From positions 3,854,501 through 3,918,500 of the forward strand of contig OX387610.1 of NCBI GenBank assembly GCA_947568835.1: 64,000 nucleotides of DNA. Direction: 5' to 3'. The translations under genes were made by a program, and so were the position numbers. Position 1 is the stretch's first letter; every line of letters starts with the position of its first letter. The stretch is from Protonemura montana. Lineage: Eukaryota > Arthropoda > Insecta > Plecoptera > Nemouridae. This document shows, one piece after another, positions 4,866 to 62,085 of the stretch. The notes beneath the pieces are model-generated. The model saw only the letters and a program-made list of their open reading frames with translations. It was not told where the DNA came from and searched no databases.

Positions 4866-6066
4866 AGTAGTTCGGTGGTCACCCATCCAATACCTGACCC
4901 AGTGCAGTGTTGCTTACCTTCGGTGATCTCACGAGGACCGGTGTTTCCAACACACCAAACCGTTTGGTGGTCAACCATCCAATATCTGACCCAGCGCAGT
5001 GATGCTTAACTTTCATCCCTCCAACTTCTCTCCCGAACAGAACTGGTCATGTGTATGATGGTCACCCATCCAATACCTGACTCAGCGCAGTGTTGCTTAA
5101 CTTTCATCCCTCCAACCTCTCTCCCGAACAGAACTGGTCATGTGTATGATAGTCACCCATCCAACACCTGACTCAACGCAGTGTTGCTTAACTTTCATCC
5201 CACCAACCTCTCTCCCGAACAGAACTGGTCATGTGTATGATGGTCACCCATCCAATACCTGACTCAGCACAGTGTTGCTTAACTTTCATCCCTCCAACCT
5301 CTCTCCCGAACAGAACTGGTCATGTATATGATGGTCACTCATCCAATACCTGACTCAGCGCAGTGTTGCTTAACTTTCATCCCTCCAACCTCTCTCCCTA
5401 TCAGAACTGGTCATGTGTACTATGGTCACCCATCCAATACCTGACTCAGCGCAGTATTGCTTAACTTTCATCCCTCCAACCTCTCTCCCGAACAGAACTG
5501 GTCATGTGTATGATGGTCACCCATCCAATACCTGACTCAGCGCAGTGTTGCTTAACTTTCATCCCTCCAACCTCTCTCCCGAACAGAACTGGTCATGTGT
5601 ATGATAGTCACCCATCCAATACCTGACTCAACGCAGTGTTGCTTAACTTTCATCCCTCCAACCTCTCTCCCGAACAGAACTGGTCATGTGTATGATAGTC
5701 ACCCATCCAATACCTGACTCAACGCAGTGTTGCTTAACTTTCATCCCTCCAACATCTCTCCCGAACAGAACTGGTCATGTGTATGATGGTCACCCATCCA
5801 ACACCTGACTCAACGCAGTGTTGCTTAACTTTCATCCCACCAACCTCTCTCCCGAACAGAACTGGTCATGTGTATGATGGTCACCCATCCAATACCTGAC
5901 TCAACGCAGTGTTGCTTAACTTTCATCCCTCCAACATCTCTCCCGAACAGAACTGGTCATGTGTATGATGGTCACCCATCCAACACCTGACTCAACGCAG
6001 TGTTGCTTACCTTCGGTGATCTCACGAGGACCGGGGTGATCCCAACACACTCAACAGTTCGGTAGA
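4866..6066 (-). mobile_element. 5S-derived SINE head expanded into a 91-bp tandem array
   Basis: On the minus strand this is the 5S-rRNA-like head of the local SINE (GATCACCGAAGTTAAGCAAC, TATTGGATGGGTGACC) plus the next segment (GACCAGTTCTGTTCGGGAGA, GAGGTTGGAGGGATGAAAGT), repeated with a 91-bp period about 11-12 times. Each unit runs from AGTTAAGCAACAC to GATGAAAGT, where the next AGTTAAGCAACAC begins. In an unexpanded SINE the same place reads GATGAAAGTTAGTACAGCAA, so the duplication joint falls on a short near-repeat. Complete 5S-type blocks (CTCGTGAGATCACCG on the minus strand) bound the array at both ends, near 4930 and 6020. Confidence 0.85.
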
Positions 6067-10416: not shown

Positions 10417-10660
10417 GTATCACTAGAATCAGAGTGACTGTGAGTATTCACAGCCTCATGGTTCTACTCCTTGAAGATCCGTCATTCTCATCAAATACAC
10501 TAAAATCCTCTCAAAAATGACATGTCCAGTTAGCTCAATGGTTTCGAGCAACACCCGCGACAGGTGGAGACCGGGGTTCGAGTCCCCGTTTGGGCATCAA
10601 CTTTCAAGTGGTTTTTAGTGTTCCAGCTAAGAAAACTCTCCCATTGCAAGCATTTGCAAT
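10417..10660 (+). mobile_element. tRNA-like element in inverted repeats, copy T1
   Basis: Positions 10523-10596 fold like a tRNA: acceptor arms TGTCCAG and TTGGGCA, D stem GCTC...GAGC, anticodon stem CACC/GGTG round the loop CGCGACA, and a perfect T arm CGGGG/CCCCG with B box GGTTCGAGTCC. The usual U33 before the anticodon is missing, so a working tRNA is doubtful. The unit is flanked by ACACTAAAATCCTCTCAAAA on the left and an imperfect inverted copy (TTTCAAGTGGTTTTTAGTGT) on the right, with a conserved 5' segment (CACTAGAATCAGAGTGACTG) outside it. Seven further copies occur in the window. Confidence 0.8.
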
Positions 10661-12156: not shown

Positions 12157-12843
12157 GATCTTAAGTTACCTGGATAGCGGTTGACATGGAGATACTTTGA
12201 TGCCAAGGCCGCCATCTTGAGAGTCTCTGATTTTCAGTTCTCTTAAAAAGCCCGTGCTATTTTAAGTGTTTTCATCAGTAGTGTTCGCGGTTACCTTCAT
12301 TTCCACCAGTTTAATGGTAACAATTATTTAAAATGTGTTTCGAAAACTCTAAAATTAGCAATGCAATTATAGGGACACCTCACATTTAGGGACTCTTACC
12401 TGTTGCCTATAATGGACTGCATGACTTCAATTTTGATCAGCTGGCTGGATCATATGCTCTATTCAGGTTATTTGAGATCAGCTGATGGATCCTATGCTCT
12501 ATACAGGTTATTTGAGATCAGCTGATGGATCCTATGCTCTATACAGGTTATTTGAGATCAGCTGATGGATCCTATGCTCTATACAGGTTATTTGAGATCA
12601 GCTGGCTGGATCCTTTGCTATCCAGGATATTTGAGATCAGCTGGCTGGATCCTATGTTCTTTCCAGGTTATTTTAGATCAGCTGGCTGGATTCTATGCTG
12701 TATCCAGGTTATTTGAGATCAGCTGGCTGGATCCTATGCTCTATCCAGGTTATTTGAGATCAGCTGGCCGGATCCTATGCTATCCTGGATATTTGAGATC
12801 AGCTGGCTGGATCCAATGCTCTATCCAGGTTATTTGAGATCAG
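12157..12843 (+). mobile_element. TIR-minisatellite element family A, copy A1
   Basis: The left end, GATCTTAAGTTACCTGGATA, is followed by a conserved subterminal segment (GCCAAGGCCGCCATCTTGAG, CTGATTTTCAGTTCTCT) and about 150 bp of AT-rich middle. Next comes a segment shared with A3 and A4 (GACTCTTACCTGTTGCC, GACTTCAATTTTGATCAGCT). The right end is a tandem array (about 10 units of 41 bp, 12448-12843) in which each unit ends CTATCCAGGTTATTTGAGAT, the reverse complement of the left end. So one terminus is single and the other is a multiplied terminal repeat. No protein coding is seen: a non-autonomous element of unknown superfamily. Confidence 0.75.
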
Positions 12844-13159
12844 CTGGCTGGAACGAATCTCTCTTGAGAAATGTCTGGATTTCTTTGGACCGATTCGACG
12901 TTAGAATATTTGTTCAAAGTTTTGTTGACCGTTCGCTGTTTGTTTAGTTTCACAAGCCGTGACTACTGACGGTGATGCAGCACAATTTTGACACAATTCG
13001 AGCAGAAATTCCGGCGTGATTTCTGATTGGTTTTGCTATTGTTTCGCTCCCCGCAAACTATTCAGCGAACGTACCCATGTACACTGTAAGAACAATACAA
13101 AATAATTATCCAACTAACAAAAGAGTTCATTATTTTTTCTTCTATTTTTCTTTGAGAGA

Positions 13160-15814: not shown

Positions 15815-15970
15815 TACTGAAGCCCCGATCTCCACCTGTCACGGGTGTTGCTCTTACCAATTGAGATACTAGGACACGAATTTTTTTAGCAGGATTTTAG
15901 TGCATTTGATGAGAATGACGGATCTCCAAGGAAAACAACCATGAGGCTATGAACACTCAATTCCCACTGA
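15815..15970 (-). mobile_element. tRNA-like element, copy T2
   Basis: Minus-strand match to the T family: the D-arm and anticodon part (CAACACCCGTGACAGGTGGA), with a B box degraded relative to T1, plus the outer segment (GGAGATCCGTCATTCTCATC, AAATGCACTAAAATCC). The right inverted repeat is poorly kept. Confidence 0.7.
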
Positions 15971-16614: not shown

Positions 16615-17150
16615 ATGTAGCTTTTGGCCCGTAAGGATAGAATATCTGTGTGAACTTTGCCTGTGGTAGTCTTTGCCCCAGAAGGATAGAATATCTGTGT
16701 AAACTTTGCCTGTGGTAGTCTTTGCCCCATAAGGATGGAATATCTGTGCAAGCTTTAGCTGTGGTAGTCTTTGTCCCATAAGGATGGAATATCTGTGCAA
16801 GCTTTATCTGTGGTAGCCTTTGCCACATAAGGATGGAATATCTGTGGAAGCTTTATCTGTGGTAGTCTTTGTCCCATAAGGATGGAATATCTGTGCAAGC
16901 TTTATCTGTGGTAGTCTTTGCCACATAAGGATGGAATATCTGTGGAAGCTTTATCTGTGGTAGTCTTTGTCCCATAAGGATGGAATATCTGTGCAAGCTT
17001 TATCTGTGGTAGTCTTTGTCCCATAAGGATGGAATATATGTGCAAGCTTTAGCTGTGGTAGTCTTTGCCTCATAAGGATGGAATATATGTGCAAGCTTTA
17101 TCTGTGGTAGCCTTTGCCCCATAAGGATGGAATATCTGTGTAAGCTTCAT
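16615..17150. repeat. 49-bp minisatellite array, about 11 units
   Basis: The unit contains CATAAGGATGGAATATCTGT, GCAAGCTTTATCTGTGGTAG and TCTTTGTCC. From about 16806 to 17010 two variants alternate (TTTGCCACATAAGG with GTGGAAGC, and TTTGTCCCATAAGG with GTGCAAGC), so the array was partly built from a 98-bp dimer. The same unit occurs inverted in a chitinase intron at 53255-53460. Confidence 0.93.
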
Positions 17151-17154
17151 CTGT

Positions 17155-18390
17155 GCTGCAACAACAAATGAACCCATGTGAAAATTACCAATTTCAAAAT
17201 CACTTTTACGGGTCAAAGTTGCAAGATATCTGCGTGATCGGGCATTTTCAGACGAGACTCGATTTTCTAACTGTTTAAGCAGCCACTGGTTGTCGTTCAG
17301 TTCCTGATGGTGTCACGTCTACCATGTCGACGTGCCGGTGCATTCTGAGTGGTTGCATGTCCTCGATGGCCTAAATCTGCAATCAGTCCGCCGATTTGCA
17401 TGCGAATGCCAACGATCTTCCACGAAGTCGTGACCAGACTTTAAAGAAGCGCTTTTCGAATGCCACGTTCGATCGACATAAGATGCAGTTATCGAACGAG
17501 ACGAAGGCCGTTGCCGTTGATGCACTTTCAGTGGATCTAATCCCGAGGATTTGTTGCTATGATTTAGTCGAGCATTTTTTATTCATGAGTTGAAATGGCA
17601 AGATTGCATATCGCTTTCAGTGGAAAGAAGGGATCATGGCGACCAGCTCACTGCACAATAATTTTACAGACAAAAAACAAATTTAAAGTTAGAGAAGCCG
17701 ATTTTTAAGATGTACAAGAAAGGTCCTACTTATGCAGGAATTTTATTCTTCAGCGTGTTGCCTACTTGGCTCTAAGATATATCTGACAGCAGTTTTAAAA
17801 GCAATTTGTAGATGCTTTTGATTGTTTTTTTTTCTTTTTTATTTAGTAAAATGACCTTCCTATGGCACAATTTGTTTGTAAAGGAATACAAAAGAATTAT
17901 TATTAATATTATTCTTTTTAATAGAAGTCTTAAACGGATGAGGAACGGAGCCGAAAGTTCCGTTTCCGTAATTGGATATCAGACGTCTTGAAAAGTATGG
18001 AATATTTTTTGAAAAGTGGACAATGACGTATCTTAAGGAGAGGTTATTTTACAAATGATTGATGACAGCACATTTTTTTTATAAACGTTCATACTGAGAG
18101 GCATTTCAGTGAGTTCTACGCGTGGTTCTAAATGCTGGTCCTAGAAGATGCAAACGGGAATCGTTAATTCGGTGACATTTAAGAACATGCTAAAATCTTT
18201 GCACTCTTAATCAGGTTCTTGTAATAATAACCCCTGGCGCCGTAAAACCAGCTCCATGCAGATGTTCAGTAAAATGACATAAGATTGCGTCACCTACTTG
18301 ACCACAATTTCTCGGACACAAGGATGATTGTGTAAGACATCTTTGTCGCCTAACACTTCGGCCGGCAGCTTGTTTACCAATAAACATAGG
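17155..18390. other. no recognisable feature
   Basis: No repeat family from elsewhere and no convincing exon. Open frames of 65-70 codons near 17319-17593 and 18211-18420 lack recognisable domains. Confidence 0.4.
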
Positions 18391-24939: not shown

Positions 24940-25641
24940 AGGTGCGGTTTTAACAAAATCTTGCCTCCTAGTTGAAGTTTTAGTTAAAACTGTTGTCATG
25001 ACGACTTCCAATCACATGCAGTGAAATTCAGATGTTTCTGTGAGCTAGAGATCCAACTTATAATTCAAAATTTTGTTGAAACTGTTGCCATGACGAATTC
25101 CAATCACATGCAGTGAAATTCAGATGTTTCTGTGAGCTAGAGATCCAACTTATAGTTGAACATTTTGATAAAACTGTTGCCATGACGACTTCCAATCACA
25201 TGCAGTGAAATTCAGATGTTTCTGTGAGCTAGAGATCCAACTTATAATTCAAAATTTTGTTGAAACTGTTGCCATGACGACTTCCAATCACATGCAGTGA
25301 AATTCAGATGTTTCTGTGAGCTACAGGTCCAACTTATAGTTGAACATTTTGTTGAAACTGTTGCCATGACGACTTCCAATCACATGCAGTGAAATTCAGA
25401 TGTTTCTGTGAGCTAGAGATCCAACTTATAGTTGAACATTTTGTTGAAACTGTTGCCATGACGACTTCCAATCACATGCATTGAAATTCAGATGTTTCTG
25501 TGAGCTAGAGATCCAACTTATAATTCAAAATTTTGTTGAAACTGTTGCCATGACGACTTCCAATCACATGCAGTGAAATTCAGATGTTTCTGTGAGCTAG
25601 AGATCCAACTTATAGATCGACATTTTGGTAAAACCAGACCT
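24940..25641 (+). mobile_element. TIR-minisatellite element family B, copy B1
   Basis: The left end AGGTGCGGTTTTAACAAAAT and the right end ATTTTGGTAAAACCAGACCT are inverted copies of each other. The left end is followed by CTTGCCTCCTAGTTGAAG, a segment also present in copy B2. Between the ends lies an array of about 7 units of 92 bp (GCCATGACGACTTCCAATCA, CATGCAGTGAAATTCAGATG, TTTCTGTGAGCTAGAGATCC). Unit joints alternate between AGTTGAACATTTTG and AATTCAAAATTTTG. The joints resemble the terminal TTTTGGTAAAAC, so the array may have grown from the element's end. No coding sequence. Confidence 0.75.
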
Positions 25642-25644
25642 AAG

Positions 25645-25904: not shown

Positions 25905-26095
25905 TTTTAATCACTTTTGTCACCAATTTTACCCATTCGTGTGGTGAATTCAACGAAAACCACAAAAACTGCCGAGAAAAACACTTCAAATAGCACGAGC
26001 TCTTTCAGAGAACTCAAAATCAGGGACTCTCAAGATGGCGACCTTGGCTTCAAAGTCTCTCCATGGCAACCAATATCCAGATTATTTGAGTTCAG
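25905..26095 (-). mobile_element. family A element, copy A2, one end only
   Basis: Holds the single-end half of family A in inverted orientation: AGAGAACTCAAAATCAGGGA, CTCTCAAGATGGCGACCTTG, GCTTCAAAGTCTCTCC, and the terminal CCAGATTATTTGAGTTCAG. The array end is missing. Confidence 0.65.
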
Positions 26096-26099
26096 TGAA

Positions 26100-26590
26100 A
26101 AAACTCGTGAAAAACTTCGCACGTCTCCGCCATTGAACCACATGGACCATGAAAGCACCTCCTTCACGTTGTCCGCATTCCTAACGATCCGTTAGCACCT
26201 TGTCAGACTTGACGGACACTTTGAAACAGTCAACCCGGACCCGGCATCGTAATACCCCATAGAATTCAAAAGCTGCTCACGAAGGGGTAGGCGTGGGGGG
26301 GGGGGGGGGGGGCAATGGGAGGTGACGCGTGGCCTTAGCGTGCGCTCTGTGGTCAAACAGGGCAACGCCCTAACGCCGTCGGCGTCGGCGTCGGTCAGAT
26401 CAGGCAGCCAACAACGGGCATTCAATTGTTGGATACTTTTGTGCGGTTAAGCAGCACAAATTTTGTACTGGCAATGGTTGGGTGACCACCTATGACATGA
26501 CTATTCGTCTTGGCTTTGACCACGCTTCGTTCGATGAGCGGGCAAGCTTTATAATCGGTCTGTCATTCACCGAAAGCCAAGACACCAGTG
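26100..26590. other. GC-richer spacer with poly-G run
   Basis: Includes a run of 18 G at 26295-26312 and a (GGCGTC)-like stretch at 26378-26394. The open frame on the minus strand is of low complexity. No gene. Confidence 0.4.
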
Positions 26591-26593
26591 CCA

Positions 26594-27175
26594 CAGGGAC
26601 AAGGCTAAGCGGTGGCCGGTCCTTGGTGCTGTTGGACAGGAGCAGCCAACACAGTGTGTCACAGGGACAAGGCTAAGCGGTGGCCGGTCCTTGGTGCTGT
26701 TGGACAGAAGCAGCCAACACAGTGTGTCACAGGGACAAGGCTAAGCGGTGGCCGGTCCTTGGTGCTGTTGGACAGAAGCAGCCAACACAGTGTGTCACAG
26801 GGACAAGGCTAAGCGGTGGCCGGTCCTTGGTGCTGTTGGACAGAAGCAGCCAACACAGTGTGTCACAGGGACAAGGCTAAGCGGTGGCCGGTCCTTGGTG
26901 CTGTTGGACAGGAGCAGCCAACACAGTGTGTCAAAGGGACAAGGCTAAGCGGTGGCCGGTCCTTGATGCTGTTGGACAGGAGCAGCCAACACAGTGTGTC
27001 AAAGGGACAAGGCTAAGCGGTGGCCGGTCCTTGGTGCTGTTGGACAGGAGCAGCCAACACAGTGTGTCAAAGTGACAAGGCTAAGCGGTGGCCGGTCCTT
27101 GGTGCTGTTGGACAGGAGCAGCCAACACAGTGTGTCAAAGGGACAAGGCTAAGCGGTGGCCGGTCCTGGCCACCG
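26594..27175 (+). repeat. 68-bp SINE-derived tandem array, about 8.5 units
   Basis: The unit GGGACAAGGCTAAGCGGTGG, CCGGTCCTTGGTGCTGTTGG, ACAGGAGCAGCC aligns with the SINE body GGGACGTTAAGCCGGTGGTC, CCCTTGGTGCTCTTCGACAG, GAGTAGGC. The remaining part, ACACAGTGTGTCAAAG, resembles the SINE tail ACAGTGCGTCGTTAAA. So the unit may be an internally deleted SINE. The array runs straight into a SINE 3' part. Because 68 is not a multiple of 3, open frames appear in staggered order and are not genes. Confidence 0.9.
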
Positions 27176-29144: not shown

Positions 29145-29715
29145 TTTTGGTGCTATTGGGCAGAAGCAGCCAACACAGTGTGTCAAAGTGACAAGGCTAA
29201 GCGGTGGCCGGTCCTTGGTGCTGTTGGACAGAAGCAGCCAACACAGTGTGTCAAAGGGACAAGACTAAGCGGTGGCTGGTCCTTGGTGCCGTTGGACAAG
29301 AGCAGCCAACACAGTGTGTCAAAGTGACAAGGCTAAGCGGTGGCCGGTCCTTGGTGCTGTTGGACAGAAGCAGCCAACACAGTGTGTCAAAGGGACTAGG
29401 CTCAGCGGTGACCAGTCCTTGGTGCTGTTGGACAGGAGCAGCCAACACAGTGTGTCAAAGGGACAAGGCTAAGCGGTGGCCAGTCTTTGGTGCTGTTGGA
29501 CAGGAGCAGCCAACACAGTGTGTCAAAGGGACAAGGCTAAGCGGTGGCCGGTCCTTGGTGCTGTTGGACAGGAGCAGCCAACACAGTGTGTCAAAGAGAC
29601 AAGGCTAAGCGGTGGCCGGTCTTTGGTGCTGTTGGACAGGAGCAGCCAACACAGTGTGTCAAAGGGACAAGGCTAAGCGGTGGCCAATCATTAGCGCTGT
29701 TGGACAAAAGCAGGT
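29145..29715 (+). repeat. second 68-bp SINE-derived array, about 8 units
   Basis: Same unit as at 26.6 kb (AGCGGTGGCCGGTCCTTGGT, GGACAGGAGCAGCCAACACA). These units carry TGTGTCAAAG, like the right-hand units of the first array, while the left-hand units of the first array carry TGTGTCACAG. The two arrays may therefore share a recent origin from the right side of array one. The 134-codon plus-strand and 148-codon minus-strand frames here are repeat by-products. Confidence 0.9.
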
Positions 29716-31370: not shown

Positions 31371-31375
31371 AGCCA

Positions 31376-31745
31376 CTGATCTCAAATAACCGGGATAGAG
31401 CATAGGATCCAGCCAGCTGATCTCAAATAATCTGGATAGAGCATAGGATCCAGCCAGCTGATCTCAAATAACCTGGATAGAGCATAGGATCCAGCCAGCT
31501 GATCTCAAATAACCTGGATAGAGCATAGGATCCAGCCAGCTGATCTCAAATAACCTGGATAGAGCATAGGATCCAGCCAGCTGATCAAAATTGAAGTCAG
31601 GCAATACATTTTTGGCAACAGGTAGGAGTCCCTAAATCTGAGGTTTCCCTATGATTTCTATTCTAATTCTATAGTTTTTGAAACACGTTGTCAACCAATT
31701 TGACTATTAAATTGGTGAAAACTACGAAAACCACGCAAACTGTTC
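31376..31745 (-). mobile_element. family A element, copy A4, truncated
   Basis: Starts with about five 41-bp units in inverted orientation (CTGATCTCAAATAACCTGGA, TAGAGCATAGGATCCAGCCA), then GATCAAAATTGAAGTCAGGC, GGCAACAGGTAGGAGTCC and the AT-rich middle. The single end (CGCCATCTTGAGAG part) is missing. Confidence 0.7.
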
Positions 31746-33362: not shown

Positions 33363-33764
33363 ATGAGCGCTCTGACTCCATATAGAAACTAGAGATCAAT
33401 GGTTCTATCCTCGTTGATGATATTCTGATCGTGTTTTATGATATTGCCGCGCTAGTTAGCGCGAAGATCATGTTATTAATGGGTCAACTCCCCCAGCTTA
33501 GCTAATTTAGATAACACACGGCATCACGCGTTACCTTAACACGCGTGATCGTGACGTAAATGAACGGTCGTAATAGACAACGTGCGTTTCATCCGAATTG
33601 CGGAAAACGAAAGTGAAAAGATTTTGATGTTTTAAAGTGGGGCTACAGGAACAATATTCTTGCTTCTTGATTTTGAATGCATGTGTTACATAAAGTTTTG
33701 GAGTGAAATTCTTTTTTTCAATATTTTTTAAAAATAAACTAGCGTTAACAGAGGTTCTTAGTTC

Positions 33765-34255
33765 TTCTATCTTATGTTACCACGGGTATATCATGGCCTA
33801 GCATAGGAGGTTCAATGGTAGATTCAACGTTTGGTAGCCATGGAGATGCTGATATCGTCTGACAGAGCTTCTCAATTCTGCTATCTTATGTTACCACGGG
33901 TATATCATGGCCTAGCATAGGAGGTTCAATGGTAGATTCAACGTTTGGTAGCCATGGAGATGCTGATATCGTCTGACAGAGCTTCTCAATTCTGCTATCT
34001 TATGTTACCACGGGTATATCATGGCCGAGCATAGGAGGTTCAATGGTAGATTCAACGTTTCGTAGCCATGGAGATGCTGAGATCGCCTGACAGAGCTTCT
34101 CAATTCTGCTATCTTATGTTACCACGGGTATATCATGGCCTAGCATAGGAGGTTCAATGGCAGATTCAACGTTTGGTAGCCATGGAGATGCTGATATCGT
34201 CTGATAGAGCATCGCAATTCTGCTATCTCATGTTACCACGGGATATAGGTACGCC
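33765..34255 (+). repeat. 114-bp tandem repeat, about 4 units
   Basis: The unit contains GAGCTTCTCAATTCTGCTAT, GTTACCACGGGTATATCATG, GCCTAGCATAGGAGGTTCAA and GATTCAACGTTTGGTAGCCA, and the spacing is exactly 114 bp between the second and third units. The family also occurs at 30.1 kb, 50.3 kb and inverted at 61.9 kb. Confidence 0.92.
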
Positions 34256-38901: not shown

Positions 38902-39606
38902 CATCAAATAACCTGGATAGCTGTTGCTATAGAGATCCTTTGTAGCCAAGGCCGCTGGATCCTATGCTCTATCCAGGTTATTTGAGATCAGCTGGCTGGA
39001 TCCTATGCTCTATCCTGGTTATTTGAGATCAGCTGGCTGGATCCTATGCTCTATCCAGGTTATTTGAGATCAGCTGGCTGGATCCTATGCTCTATCTAGG
39101 TTATTTGAGATCAGCTGGCTGGATCCTATGCTCTATCCAGGTTATTTGAGATCAGCTGGCTAGATCCAGTGCTCTATCCAGGTTATTTGAGATCAGCTGG
39201 CTGGATCCTATGCTCTATCCAGGTTATTTGAGATCAGCTGGCTGGATCCTATGCTCTATCCAGGTTATTTGAGATCAGCTGGCTGGATCCTATGCTCTAT
39301 CCAGGTTATTTGAGATCAGCTGGCTGGATCCTATGCTCTATCCAGGTTATTTGAGATCAGCTGGCTGGATTCTATGCTCTATCCAGGTTATATGAGATTA
39401 GTTGGCTGGATCCTATGTTCTATCCAGGTTATTTGAGATCAGCTGGCTGGATCCTATGCTCTATTCAGATTATTTGAGATCAGTTGGCTGGATCCTATGT
39501 TCTATCCAGGTTATTTGAGATCAGCTGGCTGGATCCTATGCTCTATTCAGATTATTTGAGATCAGCTGGCTGGATCCTATGCTCTGTCCAGGTTATTTGA
39601 GATTAG
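38902..39606 (+). mobile_element. family A element, copy A5, array-dominated
   Basis: Left end CATCAAATAACCTGGATAGC and the subterminal GTAGCCAAGGCCGCTGG are joined directly to the array, so the usual middle is gone. About 16 units of 41 bp follow (GATCAGCTGGCTGGATCCTA, TGCTCTATCCAGGTTATTTG), ending at GGTTATTTGAGATTAG. It is the largest 41-bp array in the window, and the inverted terminal relation is kept. Confidence 0.78.
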
Positions 39607-50100: not shown

Positions 50101-53100
50101 GAAGACAGAGCGAGAGAGAAGGGAAAGTGATTGTGAAGTGACAAAAGTGATAAGCTTAGCAAAACCACGGAACGAATCGTTTTATTGAAAAGGAATTCGC
50201 AGTTTATTAATACACAATTATAAAACGTACCTTAAATTATTACCTATACACTTGAAAGTGATGTCATTGCCCACTATAACCTGTAGACACGGGTATATTA
50301 TGGCCTAGTATAGGAGGTTAAATGGTAGATTCAACGTTTGGTAGCCATGGAGATGCTGAGATCACCTGACAGAGCTTCTCAATTCTGCTATCTTATGTTA
50401 CCACGGGTATATCATGGCCTAGCATAGGAGGTTCAATTGTAGATTCAACGTTTGGTAGTCACGGAAATGGTTGTAAGAAATGAATATATTTTTCAGAATG
50501 GCTTGTGAATGCAAGGATCAATGATTCACAGTAATGATGACACAAGTCGGTAGTTTTCCATAAATTATGAGTATTACCAAATCGATTGACTTTGTGCAAT
50601 TTATTGTGAGAATGCAGTCATCGATTAACGACTGAGATTTACAGCGCATGATCTGCACGCTCTCGAGTTTCGACAAGAGTTTGAAATTACAGCGCTGCCT
50701 TCACTTGTTTGCGACCGTCATAATAGACGGCTCTAAATTTGACACGACAATAAATTACTAGAATTGTGGTCGTTTGCAAGAAAAACTCGAAGAAAGCATG
50801 CACTTTAAAATCGGTGTCCCCTCTTAAGCAATTAGATGCGCAAACAGTGCATGTCGTAGCAGATGCACTTAGTTGAGGAATCTAGATATGATGTTTATCG
50901 TGTTTATTTCTTTTTAATGTGAAAATCTTGTTTGATCATTAATCGGAAGATAAGAGATGAATTTCCAAGAAAGTCAGTACAGGCACGAACTCGTTTCGCT
51001 TCTAGTTTAAATTGGCGGACGACAGTAGCGTCCCGGAACCAGAACTTTCGTTTCAAGGTCACGCGTAGAGTCCTTGAGGCAGAATCTAACGGCTGTTCTG
51101 GACGTTTTGAAATCTACAGTAGCATTGCGCTGAGGTACTGCTGGGTAGCGGATGCGCTACCGCCAGTAACTCATCCAGTAGATGATATATGCAAGGCACA
51201 GTGGATAAAACGAGTAGAATTGTAGTAAATATATTTTGGGTTGCACTTTTTTTCAGTCTAGCTTCCTTTCCATTATCCGCTTGCTGGTTTAAGCTCCCTA
51301 ATGAAAATGGCAGAAAAAACAAAAAAAAAACACTGCAAACTTGAAGTAGTTTACTTGAAAGTCCACAGTTAGTCTCATCTTGTAAAAGCAAACAGAGAGT
51401 TACCGTACATTCGAATGTCAGATTGTGAGCAAAACTATGCAAATCAAACAAGAAATGAATTCTTTCAAGTCTTTGTTATCGATGCATACATGCCATTCTT
51501 TCTCAAGCAAGGCAAGCATCTTGGCCTGCCAAGCTTTTACCAATGTAGCCAGAAAGTTCCTCTCATTCCAAAAAGCAACGAAAGAATTTAAACAATCAAA
51601 GTCTATCCCCCAGTCATCTCTCTATCATCTCTCAAAGTCTATCATCTCCAAGTGTGGAGATTTTTCAGACATTTTTAACACGAGCGTTTGTCCACGTATT
51701 CGTAGGATTCAATGTTTGCCTCTGAAACCTGTCAGCTGTCAGAATTGATTGATTTGGCTGCGTTTTCGAATGTATCCTGATGGGAAGGGATAGGTTTACC
51801 TGATGGGTAGATAAGTGAGTTGGCAACACAGCTAAGATGGTCGAGTCGAGACGGATTGAAATATTGACACCTGACCAGATGGACATGAATCGAAGAAGTA
51901 TCCTTCTAAAGACAGCTTGGAAAGTTGAAGACGATCTGCCTCTAAGGATTCTGCCTGCACGATTGGCAGCATCGTGCAGTAAAGTTGGCGGATTTCGCGA
52001 CGTCGTGGTCGTCGATTTGACGCCGTTTGGCGACGGTTTAACTCAGTGTGATGTTGATGACGCCGTGATGTCACGAGCTCGACGTACCGACGTGGTCGTG
52101 CTAAGTGCGAAGTGTGTCGACAAGCAAGCGTTTGGCGCGGGGGTGATGAGCGATGAAAATTTAAAAAAAAAAGTCCAATGTTAGTTTGCCAGTCTCTGAA
52201 TTTCATGAAAGAAAAATGCCGAGATTTCGGATATCTATCTCATGACAAAAATATCATAGAAATACTCGTGAAATCATGATGCAATTAAGCAACATTGCGC
52301 TGAGTCAGGTATTGGATGTGACCACCGAACGGTTTGGCGCGTTGGAAACACCGGTTCTTATTAGATCACCGAAGTTGAGCAACACTACGCTGGGTCAGGT
52401 ATTGGATGAGTGACCATCATACACATGACTAGTTCTGTTCGGGAGAGAAGTTGCATGGATGAAAGTTAGTTTTCCAACTTCAATCGCCTTGTTTATAACC
52501 CTCTCGACAGCGTGCATTTTTGGAGGAATCCTGTTGTTCGCGTTGTACTGTCCTTCGGAAGAGACGTTAAGCCTATGGTTCCCTTGGTACTCTTCAACAG
52601 GAGTAGTCTACGTGCCGGCACCGGGTCCCCCCTCCTCGCTTCTAGGCTACCTTAGGTTTATCACCATCTTTATCATCATCTTCACATTCACCGCCGCCAT
52701 TAGACCAGTTGCACAAAACTCGTTATCAAAACATTGCGTCGTTAAACCCCACTAATTACTCAAATCTAACCAACGCATCCCTTCTCTACAGATGTCCGTC
52801 GACGAATCCGGCGACCGAGTTCAGCGGCTTCCTCCCTGAAGAGCGTTGTCTCCGCTCCGGCGCAGTCGACGGCGGCGGCGGCGACGATCAAAACGAAGAC
52901 GCGCGACCAAGAAGTCTCGGCCAGCGTCAACCGGTTCCGCGTCAAGAACCGGCTGCCCGGAACTCTGTCGGCTTCCCGGAAATCCGGCACCTCTAGCGCG
53001 GTCGCGGCAGCGAGTGACGGCAAGGGCTACAAGGTGAGTTGGGCATTTTGATTTTATTGTCGCTGTTTAAAGAGATATTCATATGGCTGTGGTTTAGGAT

Positions 53101-56100
53101 GGGTTCTGATTTCCTGGGATTTACAACAACCCTAGGCAAAGGTTTTTTTTTGGTATGGGATGTCAAATCAGTCGAGCCTTCACCCTTGATAAAGTAACTA
53201 GTACATGGTAAGAAACAGTTAAAGATTTTACAGATATTGCAAGCCTTCTGGGGCAAAGGCTACCACAGATAAAGCGTACACAGATATTCCATGCTTATGG
53301 GATAAAGGCTACCACAGATAAATCTTGCATAGATATTCCATGCTTATGAGGCAAAGACTACCACGAATAAAGCTTGCACAGATATTCCATCCTTATGGGG
53401 CAAAGACTACCACAATTTAAGCTTGCACAGATATTCCATGCTTATGGGGCAAAAGCCCCCACTGGAAAAATGTGTTCGATGGGTAATCTGTTTGAAGTAA
53501 CTCTGTTTCTTTACAACCCCCTCGACTAACCATTCTATTCTCTTGTCACGCACAGATCGTGTGCTATTACACGAACTGGGCCCAGTACCGACCCAAACAC
53601 GGCAAGTTCCTGCCCGAGGACATCCTGCCAGACCTCTGCACACACGTCATCTTCGCATTCGGGTGGCTGAAGAAGGGCAAGCTGTCTTCCTTCGAGTCCA
53701 ACGACGAGACCAAGGACGGCAAAGTCGGACTCTACGAGCGCATCATGTCGCTCAAGAAGGCGAACCCCAAGCTTAAGATACTGATGGCCATCGGTAAGTA
53801 AAGACTTGGGAATATTTAGGTCCGGTTCTACCAAAATCTCGCCTCCTAGTTGAAGTGTTATTTGAAATTATTGCCATGACGACTTCCAATCACGTGCAGT
53901 GAAATTCAGATGTTTCTGTGAGTTAGAGATCCAACTTATTGTTCAACATTTTGTTGAAACTGTTGCCATGACGACTTCCAATCACGTGCAGTGAAATTCA
54001 GATGTTTCTGTGAGTTAGAGATCCAACTTATAGTTCAACATTTTGTTAAAACTGTTGCCATGACGACTTCCAATCACGTGCAGTGAAATTCAGATGTTTC
54101 TGTAAGTAACAACTCTTTTTTTTATAAAACCCGACTGAATAACCTCTCATGAATTGATGCCCAACCGGGGACTCGAACCACGATCTCTACTTGTCGTGGT
54201 TGTAGCTCAAACCAATTGAGCTAATTGGATATGACACTTTTTGAAAGGTTCCTTAAAATAAAATTTTCTGCTCATTGCATGTATTTGCAATTTAAATAAG
54301 ATTTCACAGCATAAAGGGTTTCCAACTTCAAATTGAAGTTACTGGTGATTGAATGGATGTGATCACAGCCTCTTGGTTCTACTCCTTGGAAATCCTAACA
54401 ACCCAACAATCTGTTTGGTATTTTTTAATTATCAAGATGATTTTTTTCAAAACGTGGCAGATCTGAATTCAATGATTCCGAAGGTGTTCTGAAAATATCA
54501 TTCTAATTTGTCCAACCATTTGGTTTGAAGAGGTAAAAAAACAGCTAGCTACGCACTTGTCCTATTATTGTCGATAACCCAGTATTGACAAACGACAATA
54601 GCTTTCGAAATTCTTCCACAAAACAAGCTTCCTATCCGCACCCGACAAACAATCCAAACAGGTCGCCGAATCGTGCAAGGACACGAAAAAAACCGTCATT
54701 TTTTTTACATTCAAAATTCCGTTCAAAACCGCCGCGAGTTCCGCGGATTGGCCGACACTAGCTGAACACGTGCAAGTCACGTGTCTGTTTCGAAAGCCCC
54801 CATTGTTGATCTAGTTTCACCGCCTCTTGGTCTGTCATTACAAACGGCCTCAAGGCTTTGTGCAGCACCCACTAGACTTTGCCGAGGCGAGAGGTACTAC
54901 ATGCGCTGTTAGGCTGCAGAAATGCGTAGACATAGCGACCTACGCCAAGCTTTTATTATAAATTACTAGCAATTAAACCGAGTTGAAGGATGTTAATACC
55001 TTTTCAGTTCAGTTACCAACATTATTACTACATGTAATTACTATTTAGCGCTGGGTTTGCGGGTTTCGTCCCAGCGTTAATGTTTAACGATTTCAGCTTG
55101 ATAGGTTTCCCGGCTTATCCCGGATTATCCCGGTTTATAGGTATAGTCAGAGGGCCAACTCAACGGTTAAACGTTCTGCTGAGCAAACGAGGCTGGCAAC
55201 ACGTAGTAACGATAGGTGCCACCCGATAGCGCTTGCGGCCGTCCTTTTTGACAAATCTCTACAATTAAATAATTACGACTCAAAATATTGCGATACATGT
55301 TTATCAATCGTTAAGGTTAGCAGAAATAAAGATTAATTGAGTGTAAACCAGTCTCAAATGCGAGTTATCGGCGAGAAATAACGAAATGAAATTTCTTAAC
55401 ACTCGAAACGATGGCGACTCTTTCTAGTAGTTTCCACCATATTTTTCGGTATAGCAGTTAATCAGGCGGTATTTTTTTTTTGTGAAGAGAGTTTAACAAT
55501 AGCGCCGTGACTCTGACCAAACTTGTTAAACAAATATTTAACTTTGATCCTGCAAAACCTTGAATAAGATCACTGAAACGTAGTCCACCTTACAGGGGAA
55601 GCACCTAGCGCAATCACAAATGGCAATAATATGACTCATAATAAGTGTTCAACTTGCGTCAATCTACGAATTTCTTTCCACGTAAAATACTTGCAAACTG
55701 AGAGAATATGAAAGAAGCTGACAAATATTTTTCATGACCAATGAAGCATTATTTTGTTATAATCATCGAAAATATATTTTCAAGAAAGAACAAATTACAC
55801 TTGCCATTACTGAAGCAATCATAAGTAGGTACCGAGTAACATGCGTCAAATGGTCGTCTTCAATTAGGTCTTGAGAAACATTTCCAAGAAGAGACGCATT
55901 TCAAACAATTTCATTACAAACCTGATCGATTTCGCGACGAGCAAGAAATTGTAATTACCGATTATCCATTTCATTTGCAATAAGTAGTAGTTATTGTGAT
56001 TATTACTAGATGACCCACTTAACACTTTTAATGATTGGTAACGATCAAAAGATATTAACAGCCCACTGTTTTTACTGTTGTTCGCGTTGTACCGTCCTTC

Positions 56101-59100
56101 GGAAGGGGCGTCAAGCCGGTGGTCCCCTTGGTGCTCTTCGACAAGAGTAGGCTACGTGCCGGCACCGGGTTTCCCCTCCTTCCTTCTAGACGAGGTTTTG
56201 TTTATCATCAACATCATCAACACCCACTCATTAGACCAGTGCCACGTGACTTACCGTCAAAACAGTGCGTCGTTAAACATGACAAATGAATCAATCTGAC
56301 CCAAAGCCGACAGAAATAACCTATATAGAGCATAGGATCCAGCCAGCTGATCTCAAATAACCTGGATAGAGCATAGGATCCAGTCAGCTGATCTCAAATA
56401 ACCTGGATAGAGCATCGGATCCAGCCAGCAGATCAAAATTGAAGTCCGACAATCCATTGTTGGCAACAGGTAGGAGTCCGTAAATCTGAGGTATCACTAT
56501 GATATCAATGCTTATTTTAGAGTTTTTGAAACAAGATTATAATACCACGAAAACAACTGATGAAAACACTTAAAATATCACGGAATTTTTGAGAGAACTG
56601 AAAATCAGTGACTCTCAAGATGGCGGCATTGGCTTCAAAGTCTCTCCCAAGCAACCGCTATGCAGGTTATTTGAGATCAGTCCCACTCGATTTTAGGGCG
56701 AATTAGCGCCTTGTGTGGCCGAACACTTTCTTGATTGAGTGACTTTTAGACAGCGTCAATCGGCCGCCGGTGAAACCTGTGACTTGGGCTGTGATTGAGC
56801 AGAGGTGCTGTTATGTAAACATCGTGATGCAGTTTGGGCGATTTAAATTGGATCGAAAACGAAAGTGGGCTCATCGTTTAATTATCTCTAGTTTCGGCGA
56901 AACGAATTCATGTTAATTTGCCCTTTTTAACAGTGTCCTATTAGCCGGGTCTACTTCTGGTCTCTAGTAGAACATTGTGAGAATTACCAGGTCTTCGTTG
57001 ACGCTCTTCATCGTGTTGAATGATGAGCGTTTAAAAGGTATTAAAAGAGGTCGCACGAAAACAGCCAAAATCCCGGCGAAAAACAAGAAAAATGCGAATA
57101 ACTGTCGAATGTAACCATTAGCAGAGCTCTAAGTTTCAAGCATGATACGTCTCAATGCGATCAACGTATTTGCAAGATTTCATTGAGGTTTGTTACATTT
57201 TTTGGTATTTATTTACTTTTCAAATTTCACAAAAAATCAAAATTTTTTGTAAACAAAAATAACTTTTTGTAGGTAATTGTTTTCAAAAACGTAGTAAATA
57301 GGTTAAAAAAATGTGAAAGGTTCCTTCTAAAATTTCATCCAGTCATTTGGGTACTAGCGTGCAAAAAACCCAAACAAGTAAAAACACAAAAAAAAAACAG
57401 ACTGGCAAGCGGTCTTTATTTCCAAAAAAAAAGTGTATGTTTAAACCTAGGAGTCTTTTTTCATCCCTCCTTTTTGGCAATCTTTCCACCCTAACCAAAA
57501 TCTTACCTTCACCGCTCTAGTTTGTGTCCCCAGATATTCCCGCTCATAAGATATTCTCTTCACTGTCTGTCGGCGCACGAGTGTCTGGCTTGGCAAGGCT
57601 GCAAAAAGTTGGTCAATTCTTGACTGGTGGAACAACAATTAGCACACGGCGTGTTAGATCTATAGCAGGTCATCGACCAATCCCACGTGCTGTTTCAACA
57701 TGATTCTGTTGTTTCTTAGACAAGCCAGTAGGTCTTGAGGAACAGCTGGAGAAGTTGCAGCCATTGGACAAAGATATCAACATTGACAAAGAACGGTCAT
57801 TCTTAGGCGAATCACGATTGAGGAAATACAAAGTTTCTTAATTTATTCTGTCAGATTTTTCAACTTAATTTTTGTCTACGCCAGGATGCTCAATGGAAGT
57901 CGTCGTACATGCAAAACAAAAATACTATAAGTTTTGGCGAGATATTACGGCGAATAGATCGAGGCGAAATTTCTGTGCAGATTCAATCCATGCTGCTCTA
58001 CACAAAATCTTAAACCAAAACGTCTTTGTTCGTCAGTAAATCTTGTGTATTTTTGTCCTGGGGTTCGGTAAATTTCTATGTTTTCTTCTTATTACGCACC
58101 CTACACTAACACGCCTTCGGAGGGAAAATATCTCTCCCACCACGTTCATGAGCCAGCTCTATCCTGGATATAGGTTGGAGGTATCGAAGTTAAGCAACAC
58201 TGTATTGGATGGATGACCGTCATACACACGGCCAGATCTATTCGGGAGTGAGGTTGGAGGGATAAAAGTTAAGCAACACTGCGCTAGGTCAGGTATTGGA
58301 TGGGTGACCATCATACACACGACCAGTTCTGTTCGGGAGAGAGGTTAGAGGGATGAAAGTTAGTACAACTTCACTCGCCTTGCTTGTCAACCTCTCGACA
58401 GCATGGATTTGAGGAGGAGTCCTGTTGTTCGCGTTTTAACGTTCTTCGGAAGGGACGTTAAGCCGGTGGCCCTTTTGGTCTTCGACAGGAGTAGGCTACG
58501 TGCCGGCAACGGGTTTCCTCTCCTGTCTACAATACTAGACTAGCTTCATCATCATCCACTCGTTTACTGACGCCATTAGACTAGTGCCACATAGCCCTTT
58601 ATCAAAACAGACCACAAATGAATGAAATAAAGTGCTAAAGATATGTCTTGTCACCCTGGTTACAGGTGGTTGGTCGTTCGGCACGCAGAAGTTCAAGGTG
58701 CTCTCGGCGTCGAGGTATTCCCGCCAGACGTTCATCTACAGCGCCATCCCCTTCCTGAGGGAGCGAAACTTCGACGGTCTGGACATGGATTGGGAGTATC
58801 CGAAGGGGTCCGACGACAAGAAGAACTTTGTGCTGCTGCTCAAAGGTGAGTGATATGTTAAGCGAGGCTAGACTAGGCTAGGCTAAGCTATGTTAGGTTA
58901 GGTAAAGCTAGGCCAGCTGAAGCAAGGCTAGGCTAGGCAAGGCTAGGGAAGGCTAGGTTAGGCTAGGCTATATGCTCTGCATACAGTATCGTGCATTATT
59001 CGGCTATTTAACGAACTACTAACGGCCCGTTAATATTTTATTCGGTCATTACGGTGCCTTGACTCCCATTTAACAGGTCTTTTATTCCTTAACGACTCTA

Positions 59101-61939: not shown

Positions 61940-62085
61940 GATACCCTTGTGGTAACATAAGATAGCAGAATTGAGAAGCTCTGTCAGGCGATCTCAGTAT
62001 CTCCATGGCTACCAAACGTTGAATCTAACATTGAACCTCCTATGCTAAGCCATGATATACCCGTGGTAACATAAGATTGCCTCTA
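61940..62085 (-). repeat. 114-bp family, inverted, in the last intron
   Basis: CTTGTGGTAACATAAGATAG, CAGAATTGAGAAGCTCTGTC, CTCCATGGCTACCAAACGTT and AGCCATGATATACCCGTGGT are the reverse of the 33.8-kb unit. It begins within about 10 bp of the exon 9 donor. Confidence 0.88.

Follow-up and report, generated by a model that had tools for sequence, protein, structure and literature searches.

A dispersed, probably MITE-like element of the stonefly Protonemura montana with a one-sided array of its own inverted end that looks much fresher than the remaining element

The stretch of P. montana DNA analyzed here (64,000 nucleotides; assembly GCA_947568835.1, contig OX387610.1, forward-strand positions 3,854,501 to 3,918,500; referred to below as the window) contains exon-like stretches of a GH18 chitinase on the plus strand at 53559-53794, 58626-58850 and 60104-60499, the middle one of which was recognized by eye. 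Nine stretches of the window (an exon of 78 aa together with eight ORFs out of the 22 that reach 110 aa) were scanned with Pfam; two GH18 chitinase exons were the sole matches, and no transposase or Rep domain was found among these nine. Array-bearing repeats apparently lie in introns of the GH18 chitinase gene. The window also harbors seven 5S-rRNA-like matches, which fall in a repeated SINE-like family, and a 91-bp minisatellite of 11.5 units (4968-6013) seems to have grown inside one such 5S-rRNA-derived repeat, with 5S matches present at both of its edges. An additional repeat family is found at 10417-10624, with similar copies near 15823, 18442, 37463, 43708, 48732, 48904 and 54140; the copy at 10523-10598 was called as a tRNA-Ser, and this family is hence probably a tRNA-derived SINE.

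The subject of this report, family A, occurs at five places in the window (A1 at 12157, A2 at 25905, A3 at 31376, A4 at 38902 and A5 at 56315), and a comparison of the window with these five copies revealed no sixth one at an E-value of 1e-3. A1, on the plus strand, consists of a single end in the form of an imperfect terminal inverted repeat (12157..12177), a non-coding body (12178..12434) and an array (12435..12852) in which units of 40-41 bp are repeated about 10 times and whose final inverted end is located at 12821-12840. A2, on the minus strand, retains a partial body (25905..26072) and the single end (26073..26096), and an array was not found. A3 (minus strand) comprises an array of five units plus 6-11 bp (31371..31586) and a partial body that lacks the single end (31587..31742). 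In A4 (plus strand), the single end with some 30 bp of adjacent body (38904..38953) is followed by an array of about 16 units that begins mid-unit (38954..39606), the remaining body having been deleted. A5 (minus strand) carries an array of three units whose distal edge is cut inside a unit (56314..56434), a body (56435..56657) and the single end (56658..56681). All five copies are damaged, and the ORF list of the window, compiled with a threshold of 110 aa, contains no stop-to-stop ORF of at least this length that overlaps any of them.

An earlier note on this DNA had placed the family at these five coordinates, which proved real, and the 41-bp arrays were called independently by Tandem Repeats Finder (12435-12852, 31371-31586, 38954-39603 and 56314-56434). 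Its statement that all five copies share a single end and an array requires amendment on both counts: the single end is present in four copies (A1, A2, A4, A5) and absent from A3, while the array is present in four (A1, A3, A4, A5) and absent from A2. Likewise, the unit numbers that it gave (about 3, 5, 10 and 16) describe the four arrays and leave out A2 with its zero units; in window order the counts are about 10, 0, 5, 16 and 3. The copy at 38902 has indeed lost its middle, as about 50 bp of its single-end side directly adjoin the array.

When read from the single end, family A begins with the inverted end CTGATCTCAAATAACCTGGATAG, continues with a body of approximately 220-260 bp and then with units of the type GATCAGCTGGCTGGATCCTATGCTCTATCCAGGTTATTTGA, and closes with a last GATCAG. 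The inverted end is contained in every consensus unit, and an inverted 20-mer was matched with zero to two mismatches at 33 array positions (10 in A1, five in A3, 16 in A4 and two in A5); the third unit of A5 does not match it within three mismatches. The description of one terminus as a minisatellite of the terminal repeat is sound. In A1, the single end and an array unit match in inverted orientation over 21 bp, with 18 identities and a score of 27, far above the best of 300 shuffles (16), in keeping with the claim that the units carry the inverted form of the single end. The inverted ends measure roughly 23 bp and could be matched over 17-23 bp in all three of the copies that possess both ends (A1, A4 and A5, out of five). 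In each of these three, the array occupies the side opposite the single end and its units run inverted to that end, so that order and orientation are the same in every case.

The appearance of a mobile element is supported by the manner in which the homology stops. On the single side, the similarity among copies breaks off at one shared point, the inverted end (12157, 26093-26096 and 56678-56681), beyond which the flanks are unrelated. Less in keeping with a TIR element, the array-side edge coincides with the terminal repeat, at GATYAGTG, in only two of the four arrays (A3 and A4); elsewhere, A1 overruns the edge of its final inverted end by 9-15 bp and A5 falls short by about 8 bp. The junction between body and array (CAATTTT-GATC) is identical in the three copies that retain it (A1, A3 and A5).

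This constant junction bears on the idea that the array itself is the mobile entity, a dispersed minisatellite that spreads, for instance, as circles and happened to land in the ends of old elements. Three other minisatellite families of the window provide a precedent of sorts for such spreading: family B with a 49-bp unit (16617-17155, 53215-53469), family D with a 68-bp unit (26588-27167, 29147-29713) and family E with a 114-bp unit (33748-34247, 50288-50469, 61941-62080) form arrays at two or three loci, mostly in differing phase, and no common flanks were seen between their loci, nor were inverted ends seen, either in a test of B against shuffles or by eye in D and E. Against this stand the identical junction, the inclusion of the element's own end in the unit, and the observation that each of the four 41-bp arrays of the window is joined to further sequence of family A; we consequently give a mobile array only a slight chance of being the correct explanation. 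A plan that, judged from its sequence, is similar to that of family A is found in a second short TIR element, family C. Its first copy (24940..25643, plus strand) has 20-bp inverted ends around 7.1 units of 92 bp, and its second copy (53818..54107, plus strand) has the left end and 2.7 units and is devoid of the right end. The inverted ends of copy 1 match at 17 of 20 positions (with a score of 25 that is barely above the best shuffle of 24), the left end of copy 2 matches the right end of copy 1 at 23 of 26 bp, and the 92-bp unit contains the left end in inverted, imperfect form over 17 bp (15/17 matching); in each of these three comparisons, none of 300 shuffles was as good.

No credible target-site duplication was detected in the three two-ended copies. 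The best candidate in A1 consists of seven exact letters that lie inside the terminal repeats, and random pairs reach its score in 172 of 2000 cases; A4 has no candidate, and A5 has a 4-mer whose score is reached by 1538 of 2000 random pairs. Because no such duplication accompanies the two-ended copies, a cut-and-paste class for family A is unproven. Three of its termini read CACTG or CACTA, which we take as a hint at the CACTA/Chapaev group; intact termini are too few for us to claim this superfamily. An exact 18-mer of the family A end had no matches in viral contigs, and its three matches in prokaryote contigs, from unrelated bacteria, were set aside as chance, since about seven are expected. 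The letters of the end and of the unit had no match in the literature text searched.

The lack of a target-site duplication in the two-ended copies would also suit a rolling-circle element of the Helitron-like HINE/pearl type with tandem repeats, as in oysters and in DINE-1 of Drosophila. Family A resembles such elements in being small, non-coding and furnished with short arrays, and array-bearing elements of this kind have been reported in molluscs, as far as the accessible parts of these publications go (PMC7492417, PMC4067079). The earlier note had raised this affinity, which does not hold up on layout. HINE/Helentron elements are described, in the accessible part of the report, as having a 3' inverted repeat 38-60 bp inside the end and a palindrome near the 3' end (PMC4067079), and their tandem repeats are central. 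In family A, by contrast, the array is terminal and a subterminal 3' inverted repeat was not seen: as judged by eye, the sequence that A1, A3 and A4 have in common extends no further than about 15 bp past the last inverted end. Each unit can form a 6-bp hairpin stem (CTGGAT/ATCCAG), yet folding is no better than that of shuffles (z -0.09 and 0.45). Helentrons insert in TT with T-rich flanks; the letters that flank the family A copies vary, and a run of T at the edge was seen by eye only in 25905. Membership among the Helentrons and HINEs was rejected on layout, and we consider it very improbable. Foldback elements are characterized by long inverted repeats and by tandem repeats that occupy the TIRs on both sides; membership in this group (Tetris, Galileo) was rejected as well, given the short inverted repeat of family A and an array that is one-sided in three of three two-ended copies. 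With neither the HINE layout nor the two-sided long TIRs of foldback elements in evidence, family A was filed as a MITE-like TIR element: it has inverted ends at both termini, it is short and non-coding, and its five copies have bodies of up to about 260 bp.

The junctions of the array suggest how it may have arisen. In A1 and A3, the body enters the first unit as ...AATTTT-GATCAG (A5 has GATCTG instead), and most units close with ...ATTTGA-GATCAG. GATCAG therefore precedes the first unit in two of three copies and also follows the last inverted end; these repeats sit within a wider similarity (TTTTGATCAG / TTTGAGATCAG). The body and unit junctions imply that a single-unit ancestor would already have been bounded by GATCAG on either side of its 41 bp; by our own arithmetic, which assumes equal base frequencies, six bases would match at this particular position by chance about once in 4000 cases. 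The array-side terminus would originally have been a single 41-bp segment, GATCAG...CTATCCAGGTTATTTGA-GATCAG, with the GATCAG direct repeat on each side. Slippage, unequal exchange or gap repair between these short repeats may then have duplicated the segment, and this would have generated a head-to-tail array with a full inverted end in each unit. Each locus would afterwards have expanded and contracted its array separately, as amplified variants private to one locus suggest: units 2-4 of A1 have two substitutions and a one-base deletion in common, and a two-unit pattern is repeated in units 12-15 of A4. The possibility that the ends are prone to amplify, which was one of two offered in the earlier note, thus finds support in the 6-bp direct repeat that bounds the unit, in these private variants and in the richness of the window in minisatellites. 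The many minisatellites of families A to E indicate that minisatellite growth is common in the window, and family A is one case in which the growing segment contains a transposon end.

The arrays and the bodies of family A differ markedly in divergence. Bodies differ between loci by 15.6-22.6% in five informative pairs (A1-A2, A1-A3, A1-A5, A2-A5 and A3-A5) and by 14.8-21.4% in the same pairs when CpG sites, which were left out because the array unit has no CpG, are disregarded. The pooled non-CpG body distance is 0.175, or about 0.10 per lineage, a value obtained from eight overlapping pairs that share copies and are not independent; the other two of the ten pairs (A2-A3, 21.2%; A3-A4, 30.2%) were dropped for short or doubtful overlap. 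In comparison, the array units depart from one shared 41-mer by 4.5% in A1, 0.9% in A3, 2.8% in A4 and 4.1% in A5; in total, 44 of the 1407 aligned sites are mismatched, as opposed to an expectation of 140, and all four array consensuses are identical to this master at 41 of 41 positions. Turnover within an array leaves the expected distance from the ancestor unchanged. Neutral simulations at six turnover rates gave joint probabilities of at most 8e-7, 9e-6 and 6e-4 for divergences of 10%, 7.5% and 5%, respectively; it should be noted that the statistic was picked after the data had been seen and that the 120-600 runs per setting place a floor under each value. Simple neutral concerted evolution inside each array is therefore disfavored, subject to the assumptions of the simulation. 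The age argument as a whole draws on a small sample, namely four arrays and as many single ends, and presupposes that mutation rates were equal and that the history was star-like.

Given the mismatch between body and array divergence, it appears that the arrays, once inserted, were refreshed or underwent exchange with other loci. Since short tandem arrays are prone to averaging during assembly and polishing, and since all four arrays fall in a segment of about 44 kb, their low divergence might alternatively be an artefact in which the reads of all arrays were averaged. Yet locus-private variants survive in them, and the arrays of the other families retain fixed differences between loci (1/49 in B, 3/92 in C, 1/68 in D and 5-10/114 in E), so that we hold this explanation to be unlikely. 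A different account derives the copies from several source elements with bodies that differed beforehand, while selection for recognition by the transposase held the array unit constant; the insertions would be young, and no exchange between loci would be needed. It accounts well for conserved units beside diverged bodies, and the TIR repeats of Galileo have been proposed, in the accessible part of the report, to hold multiple transposase sites (PMC3573991). However, if selection on transposase sites alone were at work, the single end should be constant too. Instead, the single ends are changed at about 10 of 88 sites in four copies, a count made partly by reading alignments, versus 25 of 792 sites in the matching array stretch (Fisher p = 0.0013); with A4 restricted to the 17 sites that align, 7/84 sites are changed (p = 0.027, the strictest count), and 7/67 when A4 is omitted (p = 0.009). 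The single ends have decayed about as much as the bodies did, and the damage to all five copies is that of old rather than young insertions. We consequently regard the source-element account as rather unlikely, although it deserves more consideration than an assembly artefact. Of the 26 distinct unit variants, eight are found at two loci each (p = 0.005 under a naive null that ignores mutational hot spots); together with the decay of the single ends, these variants favor renewal after insertion and some sharing between loci.

What can be read directly from the window is the anatomy of the element, its fixed order, the unit boundaries, the locus-private amplified variants and the divergence mismatch. 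From these features, we suggest that family A is probably an old, non-autonomous MITE-like TIR element whose terminal 41 bp were duplicated between GATCAG repeats, expanded, and later renewed. It would have been mobilized by a transposase encoded elsewhere; after insertion, bodies and single ends would have decayed, whereas copying within a locus, and apparently also from one locus to another, would have renewed the arrays. As judged from the sequences, the arrays thus appear to have been renewed after insertion or exchanged between loci, with constraint, subfamily history and assembly smoothing as the alternatives. More tentatively, and in our estimation less probable than not, inter-locus copying may keep the terminal arrays on dispersed, long-dead copies alike, as a shared self-refreshing pool while the rest decays neutrally. 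If true, an element that is ruined in every other respect could remain movable by virtue of such an array.

Transposons are a recognized source of minisatellites and satellites, while the formation of the first repeat and the likeness of scattered arrays are still debated. In family A, the unit edges coincide with a 6-bp direct repeat, the unit holds the presumed functional end, and the diverged body and the opposite single end act as clocks for the array. With these clocks and edges, a genome-wide survey could separate selection for transposase sites, neutral expansion and inter-locus exchange from each other.

Tandem repeats borne by TIRs are already known (Galileo, Tetris, Xstir, miDNA4). 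The parts of the literature on tandem-repeat MITE and TIR elements that were searched, few subscription journals among them, describe no one-sided terminal-array plan. The new point would be the age contrast, in that the multiplied ends look much fresher than the remaining element. The accessible parts of the reports cited in the following provide the closest relatives in plan. Like family A, the Galileo F and G subfamilies (P superfamily, Drosophila) have direct tandem repeats inside the TIR, and their numbers can differ between the two TIRs of one copy; secondary transposase sites have been proposed to reside in these repeats (PMC3573991). Galileo F has repeats of about 210 bp in two or three copies inside long TIRs (PMC3573991), whereas the family A unit measures 41 bp, reaches a copy number of 16 and encloses the short TIR in full. 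Tetris, a foldback element of Drosophila virilis, similarly possesses TIR-derived tandem repeats of variable number, and many of its arrays occur without the remaining element; a transposase-encoding partner was not found in that work (PMC4079207). Its units of about 220 bp, TIRs of up to 1.7 kb and kilobase satellite-like arrays set it apart (PMC4079207), as does the restriction of the family A array to one side. That multiplied transposase binding aids movement is a published idea for Galileo and Tetris, and the extra ends of family A might, by analogy, serve as added binding sites in the same manner; this was the other possibility offered in the earlier note.

The Xenopus MITEs Xmix/Xstir and miDNA4 also carry tandem repeats, but their arrays are described as internal, or as derived from internal or TIR segments, while the family A array is the terminus itself (PMC12628747, PMC9659126, PMC6004289). 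In miDNA4, changes in copy number have been proposed to be driven by short direct repeats 5 bp or more in length (PMC12628747), as we propose for family A. CMITE, a piggyBac-related element of corals, resembles family A in that conservation is higher in one segment of the element than in the TIRs, and its tandem arrays have been ascribed to replication slippage; in CMITE, however, the internal region is conserved and whole elements are in tandem, whereas in family A one terminal segment is both repeated and conserved (PMC2872659). The bivalve elements Cg_HINE, pearl and DTC84 resemble family A as small non-coding elements that disperse short satellite-like arrays, in an oyster satellitome dominated by monomers of 160-180 bp (PMC7492417, PMC5139131, PMC8268682). 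Their repeats are central, between two modules, rather than terminal as in family A, and Cg_HINE additionally has subterminal repeats, a microsatellite and a 3' palindrome (PMC7492417). BrickBuilt, a MITE of Porphyromonas gingivalis, combines a 23-nt minisatellite with small inverted ends, as family A does, yet it is bacterial and its array lies between a leader and a tail, not at one terminus (PMC4596501). Among these systems, the best reading of the family A sequences is that of a MITE-like TIR element, which its one-sided array and its age mismatch set apart.
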